Shown: positions 31,416 to 34,212 of the stretch, in pieces
How the letters are laid out: each line of letters starts with the position of its first letter
Position numbering within the stretch: position 1 is the first letter of the stretch
Assembly: GCA_022865215.1 (NCBI GenBank)
Contig: JALIDP010000005.1
Location: 1-36,624, forward strand
DNA length: 36,624 nucleotides
Origin: Candidatus Nanohalarchaeota archaeon QJJ-7
GTDB lineage: Archaea; Nanohalarchaeota; Nanosalinia; Nanosalinales; Nanohalalkaliarchaeaceae
Reading direction: 5' to 3'
Program-made: the position numbers and the translations under genes
Notes under the pieces: model-generated
Database searches by the model: none
Told to the model about the DNA's origin: nothing
The model's input: the letters and a program-made list of their open reading frames with translations, nothing else

Positions 31416-32162
31416 ATGAAGCTGCTAGGCCGGTTCGAGACGGTGGAAAGCTATCCCGCCATATATGACCCTGAGGCGGACGCAGCAGTGGTTTCGGACC
31501 TGCATCTCGGTCTCGAATCGCTGATGGCTGAAGGCGGGGTATTCATGCCGAAGTTCCAGCTGAAGGAGATGAAGGAGGATCTTGAGGAGCTGCTGGAACA
31601 GACCGGTGCGGAGAAGCTTATCGTCCTGGGAGACGTGAAGCACGAGTTCTCCGAAACCTCGAAAGGAGAAAAGGAGGAGGTTCAGGAACTGCTCGACTTT
31701 CTCTCCGACAGGGTAGAGGAAGTACTGTTGGTCAAAGGAAACCACGACAACTATCTTATATACGCTGTAGAAGATTACGATCACGTGGAACTGGAGGACA
31801 GATTCGTGCTGGAGGACGCGCTCTACATCCACGGACATGAACTGGTCGAGGACCTGGAGACCTTCGATGCCTCTTACGTAGTTATCGGACACGAGCATCC
31901 TGCACTAGCGCTGAAAGACGAGGTCGGTGTAAAGGAGAAGCTCCCCGCATTCCTCTACGGTGAGATGGATGACGGGAGGGAATTACTGGTGCTTCCTGCG
32001 TTCTCCAAACTGGCAGATGGTTCCCAGGTCAACCAGGTGAGTGAGGAGGAGCTGATGTCACCGTTCCTGAAGCAGAAGATAGATATAGGCGAGATGGAGG
32101 CAGTAGGTGTTGACAGGGAAGCAGGACTCTTCGAGTTTCCCTCGCTCCGTAAACTGCGGTAG
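31416..32162 (+). CDS. Calcineurin-like metallophosphoesterase
   Basis: VVSDLHLGLE, VLGDVKHEF, VKGNHDNY, YIHGHE, VIGHEHPAL. Confidence 0.9.
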   Translation: MKLLGRFETVESYPAIYDPEADAAVVSDLHLGLESLMAEGGVFMPKFQLKEMKEDLEELLEQTGAEKLIVLGDVKHEFSETSKGEKEEVQELLDFLSDRVEEVLLVKGNHDNYLIYAVEDYDHVELEDRFVLEDALYIHGHELVEDLETFDASYVVIGHEHPALALKDEVGVKEKLPAFLYGEMDDGRELLVLPAFSKLADGSQVNQVSEEELMSPFLKQKIDIGEMEAVGVDREAGLFEFPSLRKLR

Positions 32163-32171
32163 CAGTTTACG
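32148..32171. repeat. Perfect hairpin, 10-bp stem: CGTAAACTGC-GGTA-GCAGTTTACG
   Basis: Read directly; spans the metallophosphoesterase stop codon. Confidence 0.9.
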
Positions 32172-32187
32172 TCGATCGAGTTAAATC

Positions 32188-32237
32188 GCATCTTTCTCGG
32201 AGAAAGATGCTCGAACATCGTTCCGGAGGAACGATGT
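32188..32237. repeat. Twin perfect hairpins: GCATCTTTCT-CGG-AGAAAGATGC, TCGA, ACATCGTTCC-GGA-GGAACGATGT
   Basis: Two 23-nt perfect 10-bp stems with 3-nt loops separated by 4 nt, in a convergent intergenic region. Confidence 0.92.
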
Positions 32238-32269
32238 GATCTCCGGTTTATCGAGCTCCGTAAACTGCG

Positions 32270-32662
32270 CTAGTGCAGGATGTTACCCTCTTCGTCAGGA
32301 TCGTAGATATCGGCTTCGTTCTCCTCCCTCTCCTCTTCCTCCATCTCTTTCAGTTTCTCCTCCTTCGCCTCTTCTTTCAATTCCTTGAACCTCTTGCTGG
32401 CCATGTCCTCTTCTGATCCATCGGAAGATTTCTCTTCTTCTCGAGGTTGCCTTACCGGTGAAGGTTCCGGTTCAGGGGAAGCCTCCTTCCTCTCCGGAGA
32501 ACCTGTTTCGGCGGGAGAACTTTGATCTTCCACCTTCTCCTCCCCCGGCTGTATGTCCAGTCCTTTAAGTCCTGAATCTTCGGAACTTTCCTTTCTTTCA
32601 GGACTCTCGTCACTCTCCAGCTTGGACTTGATCTTGTCCGCGGGGTCCTCCTCGAATTCCAT
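32270..32662 (-). CDS. Uncharacterised, highly charged low-complexity protein
   Basis: MEFEEDPADKIKSKLESDESPERKESSEDSG... Start at 32662 supported by TTTAAATA centred about 25 nt upstream. Confidence 0.65.
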   Translation of the reverse strand: MEFEEDPADKIKSKLESDESPERKESSEDSGLKGLDIQPGEEKVEDQSSPAETGSPERKEASPEPEPSPVRQPREEEKSSDGSEEDMASKRFKELKEEAKEEKLKEMEEEEREENEADIYDPDEEGNILH

Positions 32663-32685
32663 ATGAAAAGGATATGACTGCTTAT

Positions 32686-33339
32686 TTAAAACAGTCCCGG
32701 GAGTAACGCCATTAACCCGGGAGATGAACCTGCTTTGAGCCCGTAATAGGCCACGAATCCCAGGAAGCTTTCGTAAGTCAGGAACCCTAGGAACGAGTAG
32801 ATAGCGAAGGTCCGGATGTTCAACCGGGCGATCCCTGCCGGTACTGCTGCCCATCCACCTATCCACGGGACTATCCTGAGGAAGTACATACTGAGCCTAC
32901 CGTGTTCAACCACGATCCAATCCAGAAACCTCCACTTCTTTGAGTTCCTGTCAGAGATTAAACGTTCGCCTGCAAGCCTCGATATCAAGTAGATGACAAA
33001 GTTGAACGCTGTTATCGTGGCCGCACCTATGATCGCTATGATTAGAACATCCAGGGGAGAATCAGCAACCTCCAGGACATAAAGAGGGGTAACTGTCTCG
33101 GCCGGGACAATTAGGAAGAGAAGGAGCCCTTTGATGGAAGAGGCTCCGATATAGGCCCAGATCCCGTAGGTGGCTATAGCTGTCTCGAGGGCGGAATAGG
33201 CAGTGCCCGCGATACCGCTCACAGGGCTGTTCTCCAGCATCTGGAAGAGGTCTATAACAGCTCTTCCCTGAAGGTATCCCAGGGGTGAACCTACTGACAG
33301 ACCTATCATCAATGCCTGGACCTTCTGGAGTATGGACAT
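32686..33339 (-). CDS. DedA/VTT-domain (SNARE-associated) membrane protein
   Basis: Several TM helices; FLDWIVVEHGRLSMYFLRIVPWIGGWAAVPAGIARLNIRTFAIYSFLGFLTYESFLGFVAYYG is the VTT signature region. Confidence 0.78.
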   Translation of the reverse strand: MSILQKVQALMIGLSVGSPLGYLQGRAVIDLFQMLENSPVSGIAGTAYSALETAIATYGIWAYIGASSIKGLLLFLIVPAETVTPLYVLEVADSPLDVLIIAIIGAATITAFNFVIYLISRLAGERLISDRNSKKWRFLDWIVVEHGRLSMYFLRIVPWIGGWAAVPAGIARLNIRTFAIYSFLGFLTYESFLGFVAYYGLKAGSSPGLMALLPGLF

Positions 33340-33458
33340 CAGGTAGGGGTTCCCCTTCCTGTAATAAATAACCGCGCCCTTTACCCCTTATAGGCCGGTA
33401 TTCCGGGAGTCGAAACCCTTAAATAGTTGTCAGGCGCAGCCATTTCCAGTGGTAAGAT

Positions 33459-33803
33459 ATGGTTGATGTACCGGACGAGGTTGACAAGGAAGATCTGGCA
33501 TTCCCGCATTCGCGGATAGTAAACATGGTCAGGGACGAGACTAAAGATGGACAGTATGTAAGGAAGTCGGTCTATCATGGACTGAATCTTCTTTTGGGTA
33601 ACATCGCAGAGGATATAATCGACAAGCTCGTGCAGACAGATGCTGCGTACATCGAAAAACACGATCTCGACCGCGCCTCGCGGAAGTACGAGAACATCGA
33701 GGAAGTGATGGAGGAGAAGGAGAGGATCATCAAGCATCTCCGCGCGTTGGAGGAGGACGTGAACAAGCTCTCAAGGGACATCGAACGTGCCGGGATGGAC
33801 TAA
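33459..33803 (+). CDS. Histone-fold protein with C-terminal coiled-coil extension
   Basis: LAFPHSRIVNMVRDETKDGQYVRKSVYHGLNLLLGNIAEDIIDKLVQTDAAYIEKHDLDRASRKY aligns by eye to archaeal histone helices 1-3; followed by EEVMEEKERIIKHLRALEEDVNKLSRDIERAGMD. Confidence 0.72.
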   Translation: MVDVPDEVDKEDLAFPHSRIVNMVRDETKDGQYVRKSVYHGLNLLLGNIAEDIIDKLVQTDAAYIEKHDLDRASRKYENIEEVMEEKERIIKHLRALEEDVNKLSRDIERAGMD

Positions 33804-33806
33804 ACG

Positions 33807-33828
33807 CATCCGAGCGTCAGCGAGGATG
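33807..33828. repeat. Imperfect hairpin CATCCGAGC-GTCA-GCGAGGATG
   Basis: 9-bp stem with two mismatches and a 4-nt loop. Confidence 0.65.
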
Positions 33829-33856
33829 GAACCGCGATGAACTTCAAGTGGAAGTC

Positions 33857-33906
33857 ACCTGCTTCCATCGGAAGCAGGTTCAAACAGCGTTCCAGGGGAA
33901 CAATGT
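33857..33906. repeat. Twin hairpins: ACCTGCTTCC-ATC-GGAAGCAGGT, TCAA, ACAGCGTTCC-AGG-GGAACAATGT
   Basis: First stem is perfect (10 bp), second has two mismatches; same 23/4/23-nt geometry as 32188-32237. Confidence 0.88.
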
Positions 33907-33921
33907 GGGGCGCCTCTTAAG

Positions 33922-34140
33922 ATGGAATGGGTGAAAGCAGGTAAGAACGAGTGGAGGCTCTCATCCCCTGATTTTGAAGGAACTGCTGTTCTCAACCAGA
34001 CCAATGAAGGTTACATCGCATTGGTCAGAGTAGAGGAGAAGCAGTTCGACATGGAACTTTTGAACGACCGCGAGTTCTTCGAGAAGGAGGAGGAAGCGAT
34101 GGAGTTTCTCAGGGACAGGATGGACCGGGACAGTTACTGA
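33922..34140 (+). CDS. Small uncharacterised protein
   Basis: 72-aa ORF MEWVKAGKNEWRLSSPDFEGTAVLNQTNEGYIALVRVEEKQFD...; composition consistent with a real gene. Confidence 0.55.
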   Translation: MEWVKAGKNEWRLSSPDFEGTAVLNQTNEGYIALVRVEEKQFDMELLNDREFFEKEEEAMEFLRDRMDRDSY

Positions 34141-34181
34141 ATCTTCTACACTCTTTTTATTAGCACCAGAATTCCAAAATG

Positions 34182-34192
34182 CTTATATATAA
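34182..34192 (+). promoter_or_regulatory. Archaeal TATA box (CTTATATATAA), leaderless-type spacing
   Basis: Centred about 26 nt upstream of ATG 34213. Confidence 0.7.
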
Positions 34193-34212
34193 CTTCCTCT
34201 AAGTAACAACAT

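Follow-up and report, generated by a model that had tools for sequence, protein, structure and literature searches.

A twin-hairpin module of Nanohaloarchaeota that probably belongs to a short insertion element resident in tRNA introns

The origin of archaeal tRNA introns is an open question, and the family of hairpins described here is found within tRNA introns, beside tRNA genes and in protein genes. The closest described case is that of the transposed tRNA introns of the Thermoproteales, where similar introns occur across tRNA specificities in one lineage (Fujishima et al. 2010, reviewed in PMC4090602). In terms of that review's account, both cases have introns common to tRNAs of different specificity within a lineage, but the copies described here share a covarying structure, not a near-identical sequence, and also lie at the starts and ends of protein genes. 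Introns have been recorded in 15 of the 39 tRNA genes of Nanohalococcus SVXNc (PMC10266531). Rickettsia palindromic elements, going by their description in the literature (PMC6649704), are likewise small, non-autonomous, hairpin-forming and found within genes (here within a 400-aa ORF in a relative, G001). They belong to another phylum and have another sequence, whereas tRNA introns are the main home of the present family, and in that account their repeats are reported to lose identity over time, in contrast to the stems here, which stay paired. A mobile-element model for Caldiarchaeum also explains intron gain, and tRNA fragments adjoining tRNA genes, by insertion, but the insertion is 1.8 kb long and encodes a recombinase (PMC3293823), in contrast to about 60-300 nt and no recombinase gene here. 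Eukaryotic introners are transposable elements which become introns where they land (PMC9860276); they are spliceosomal, whereas the tRNA copies here would be removed by the archaeal tRNA-splicing route. The present family is allied to transposing tRNA introns and palindromic insertion elements, and we consider that the twin hairpin probably forms part of a short insertion element of Nanohaloarchaeota, which would be non-autonomous, rich in palindromes and resident in tRNA introns and would spread by insertion.

The window, ie the whole stretch of 36,624 nt that was analysed, is contig C30 of a 753-kb, 34-contig, 78%-complete archaeal assembly (G000). It carries two copies of the twin module (Table 1), which share the 23 + 4 + 23 nt layout reported in a first-pass annotation. 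In the copy at 33857-33906 the first stem is paired at 10/10 positions, also as annotated, and the second at 8/10, with a G.A and a C.A mismatch; both stems of the copy at 32188-32237 are perfect. A strict twin test, which the 8/10 stem fails, therefore counts 1 in the window, the 32188 copy, compared with 0 in each of 60 dinucleotide shuffles. Exact hairpins of 10 bp with a 3-nt loop numbered 10 against 0.3 expected, and longer stems were absent, in 410 kb of G000 sampled as stretches that were partly picked because their contigs held matches. The pattern ACN4TTCCN3GGAAN4GT occurs 12 times in G000, and its reversed control has no occurrence there.

Table 1. Positions of the two copies and their parts in the window
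Feature	Position	Strand	Remarks
Copy 1, inserted segment with twin hairpin	32163..32245	.	3' end of metallophosphoesterase gene; twin covariance model R2 match 32183-32240
Upstream copy of duplicated target	32135..32162	+	Last codons and stop of metallophosphoesterase gene
Twin hairpin of copy 1	32188..32237	.	32188-32210, TCGA, 32215-32237
Downstream copy of duplicated target	32246..32273	+	Direct repeat with 32135-32162, 82% over 28 nt
Copy 2, whole inserted element	33804..33921	+	Between stop of ORF 33459-33803 and start of ORF 33922-34140; covariance model R1 match 33806-33925
P1 hairpin CATCC/GGATG	33807..33828	+	P1 covaries across copies
P2 stem	33842..33921	+	5' arm CTTCAAGTGG 33842-33851, 3' arm CCTCTTAAG 33913-33921; twin in tip
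Hairpin 1 of twin module	33857..33879	+	10-3-10; ACCTGCTTCC-ATC-GGAAGCAGGT
Linker TCAA	33880-33883		Joins both hairpins
Hairpin 2 of twin module	33884..33906	+	10-3-10, two mismatches; ACAGCGTTCC-AGG-GGAACAATGT
GGGGCG, weak putative Shine-Dalgarno-like stretch	33907..33912	+	9 nt before ATG 33922

Short copies in contigs C6, C7 and C8 consist of a core which is devoid of the twin hairpin, and the latter is therefore an insert in a larger element. The common core is made up of P1 (CAYYC..GRRTG), the stretch TGGAACC..TGA and P2, whose stem ends in CTTAAG or CCTAAG. The twin module is located at the P2 tip (four copies), in the P1-P2 interval (C31 and the first C26 module) or alone. Among the copies P1 occurs as CACTC/GAGTG, CATCC/GGATG and CATTC/GAATG, and P2 as AAG/CTT, AGG/CCT and AGC/GCT. 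When eight core sequences were aligned with the twin removed, 4 of the 12 pairs were changed on both sides, 97.9% of cells paired and the covariation score was matched by 0/500 shuffles. The imperfect hairpin that the first-pass annotation saw at 33807-33828 is real, being the conserved P1; the parallel it drew with a hairpin at 32148-32171 fails, since the latter is a duplicated gene end together with its reverse complement. The GGGGCG of copy 2 is replaced at the same place by GGGGTG in the C8 copy and by GGGAGG in the C26 copy.

The core covariance model, R1, matched 17 places in G000 and others in the relatives G001, G007, G017 and G006. The twin model, R2, found about 15 places in G000 and more in four related Nanohaloarchaeota (G001, G014, G008 and G025); among 197 archaea its matches were confined to five genomes of this order, apart from G147, whose seven matches, five of them with equal scores, are probably an unrelated repeat. 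Plain blastn in 59 relatives gave nothing outside G000, and the copies in the relatives surfaced only with covariance models. A scan of the GTDB species genomes for the pattern returned three loci in Nanohalarchaeota QJJ-9 and two bacterial matches, which were taken as chance. Rfam 15 gave no match at the gathering score in the window and none at E<=5 in 31900-34200; in 13 loci that bear introns and copies nothing but tRNA scored above threshold, and no Rfam group I match, ie no group I intron core, was found in the introns or the element. The earlier view of a dispersed structured family to which no named family corresponds is therefore upheld, on the one side by covariation and the covariance-model matches in G000 and its relatives and on the other by Rfam. 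The family is real, unnamed and restricted to a lineage, and its loop pattern is its oddest feature. A fixed small-RNA family was rejected as the sole reading because the copies lie in unrelated contexts and in both orientations.

In the stretches of G000 mentioned above, which were partly selected for matches, 6 of 13 twin places and 8 of 15 core places lay within 400 nt of a tRNA, a distance that takes in 5.5% of bases. ARAGORN placed introns in the anticodon-loop region, around the matches, in the G000 tRNAs for Ser, Lys, Cys, Trp, Arg and Gln. The R1 places in the relatives are mostly tRNA introns, or lie in the interval separating an intact tRNA from a repeated tRNA end, and many of the relatives' twin modules adjoin a tRNA or are in a tRNA intron (Thr, Met, Asp, Ala, Trp and Glu). 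The tRNA-resident copies occupy an intron position between exons that are otherwise intact, which the two copies in the window, where no tRNA gene was found, do not. In the tRNA-Met of G014 a basal stem, GAAGATC/GATCTTC, carries the twin, a topology also seen in the C15 copy of G000 and in the P2 of the window. As regards the terminal inverted repeats expected of a MITE-type transposon, inverted core pairs fill much of the tRNA-Lys intron and of the G007 tRNA-Gly intron, but most copies have one end only. The minimum-energy folds of nine pre-tRNAs gave no clear bulge-helix-bulge, so that we infer splicing from the intact tRNA exons and the ARAGORN assignments; by eye, CUUG/UAAG with 3-nt bulges fits the tRNA-Thr of G017. 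The element would be tolerated in tRNA genes because the tRNA splicing endonuclease and a ligase would remove it from the transcripts. Some tRNA introns (L069, L071, L091, L068) share a second motif, about GGTTACGCTC..GGACGCAA, in their 5' half.

Target duplications, which in a MITE-type transposon would be of constant length, vary across the copies from about 4 to 48 nt. On the tRNA side they include TTGAG in tRNA-Ser and 3' tRNA ends beside tRNA-Phe, and the insertions there follow the same plan as 32163-32245, namely a repeated tRNA end with a stretch complementary to that end. At seven G000 loci (C8:41-371, L049; C15:219, L050; C29:2379, L053; C10:14330, L056; C31:8890, L057; C8:9287, L064; C11:5566, L065) a tRNA gene has its own 5' or 3' end partly copied in its flank, along with small hairpins and a segment that is complementary to this copied end. 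The tRNA-Phe of G000 has three versions of its 3' end, in a layout that recurs in G007 (L085). Duplicated 3' and 5' tRNA ends and sites in the anticodon loop are also what would be expected if larger elements had been integrated by an integrase at tRNA attachment sites, in the manner of SSV/pNOB8, and then lost, leaving relics, and a comparable model exists for Caldiarchaeum (PMC3293823). We regard this as the strongest of the alternatives, though an improbable one: the targets in protein genes (with duplications of 4-28 nt) share no tRNA-like core, and structure is conserved in the elements themselves and not just at their borders.

The second-hairpin pattern was located at C1, C8 and C26 and twice in C30, and a 114-nt query retrieved an element of approximately 110 nt at C8:11372, C30:33819, C1:8192 and C26:2611 (87-100% identity), with some weaker pieces. 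These four near copies each abut the ATG of another, unrelated gene, the genes being EF-1beta, an S27ae-like gene and an epimerase (by Pfam) and the conserved ORF at 33922. ORF 33459, upstream of copy 2, was considered as a prefoldin; Pfam gave one sub-threshold match, to another family, and it is now called a conserved ORF. Its ortholog in G009 and G011 is followed by the junction TAA-G-ATG, without the element, and in G005 the next gene follows the ortholog directly. No element stands at the EF-1beta start in ten relatives, among them G001, which belongs to the same family; at the metallophosphoesterase gene end (32162) none lies behind the ortholog in 10 relatives. Judged by these empty sites in relatives, the three protein-gene copies tested (33804, the EF-1beta start and 32162) are lineage-specific insertions. 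Since the same family is found in tRNA introns, beside tRNA genes and as apparently recent protein-gene insertions with empty sites, it offers defined copies on which to test insertion, target duplication and splicing.

At copy 1, positions 32162-32179 are complementary to 32251-32268 (18 nt, 83%). The 28-nt duplication (32135/32246) speaks against an IS200/IS605-derived palindrome element, which would insert without target duplication; the 33804 junction is ambiguous, as an insertion into TAA|GATG that duplicates nothing would also account for it. By eye, a short repeated target is present at the other start-codon copies (TAAGATGAA in C26, approximately TAAGATG in C1 and ATGG in C8), although the duplications are only 4-5 nt at two of them and some may be chance. 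A further start region, at C32:17300 in a gene which we take from its sequence to be nrdR, reads ATGAACTGC..twin..ATGCGTTGC. At one site in G001 (C57:5034, L184) a twin module is bracketed by two copies of about 48 nt of a gene start. The element may be inserted at staggered breaks, whose repair would duplicate between a few and about 50 nt of the target. In protein genes it would survive when it lands on a stop-start junction or a start codon, because the start codon would be kept or duplicated and the end of the element would provide a Shine-Dalgarno-like stretch.

The exact position of the four copies at a start codon, with such a stretch 9 nt upstream, would equally suit a cis-regulatory RNA, ie a structure in the 5' UTR controlling translation of the gene behind it. 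This we think unlikely, as the downstream genes are unrelated, both of those tested are without the element in relatives, and the other copies are mostly in tRNA introns or behind genes.

The first-pass annotation had also claimed compensatory changes in the stems, and here the covariation test was positive. In a model of the twin module built from eight G000 copies, 12 of the 20 pairs were changed on both sides and 96.9% of cells paired. The covariation score was reached in 0/500 shuffles, and sliding the partners destroyed pairing, although the alignments (A2 and A4) were hand-cut and their own sequences supplied the structure, a bias towards it relative to the slid controls. The two-sided changes fall on 7 pairs in hairpin 1 and 5 in hairpin 2, so the description of a variable first stem and a conserved second stem was wrong because both helices vary with compensation; the C15 copy differs in both stems, while one and the same first stem is common to the four close copies. 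The compensatory changes show that the paired arms are maintained. They are no proof of RNA function by themselves, since template switching in replication can produce multiple compensatory changes, and inverted loops, as its footprints (PMC8794818), and compensatory changes in the stems of dispersed hairpins thus need not mean a functional RNA. The stems may be kept paired by selection for the folded form, by template switching or by both.

Template switching could also be taken as the whole explanation, in which case the element has no function, the hairpins are made and kept perfect by that process and the similarity between sites is due to chance. Loop inversions, one of the listed footprints (PMC8794818), do occur here, as between the C1 and C26 copies (ACA vs TGT). 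Such an account is nevertheless very unlikely given the sequence shared outside the hairpins, the fixed 10-3-10 geometry and the fixed TCGA linker, and copies of about 100 nt that are 87-89% similar at unrelated loci require copying of an element. Least credible, and rejected, is a conserved short peptide (M-[TN]-F-K-W-K-S-P-A-S-x-G-S-R-F...) encoded by the element and made immediately ahead of the downstream gene's product. All four close copies do have an open frame, with its stop 1 nt before the next ATG, but the codon differences are 43 nonsynonymous against 11 synonymous, the loops are the most variable sites and the tRNA-intron copies cannot be coding.

Among the four near copies, on which the excess of loop changes rests, 27 of the 36 loop sites compared are different, which at 75% is the value expected for random letters, against 9/240 in the stems and 3/72 in the linkers and flanks (about 4% for stems and linkers). 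The combination of randomised loops and conserved stems gives a measurable trace of the way in which copies arise. The mobile element may, more speculatively, be an archaeal counterpart of the introners, a structured element which seeds tRNA introns across the phylum, enters mRNAs and has its loops rewritten at each copying event; opening of the tip or template switching would do the rewriting, leaving random loops on fixed stems and linkers.

Some individual copies have features of their own. The twin modules of G025 C11 (L159) and C24 (L161) are near-identical with one hairpin loop inverted (TACAAA/TTTGTA), and in G008 (L171/L189) the two stems occur in swapped order with other loops. At G001 C56:22606 (L181) an open ORF of 400 aa that resembles a CCA-adding enzyme contains a twin module in frame, which may be either translated through or spliced. 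The twin module in a small ORF at G000 C21:710 (L194) brings a stop codon, and the frame continues beyond the insert.
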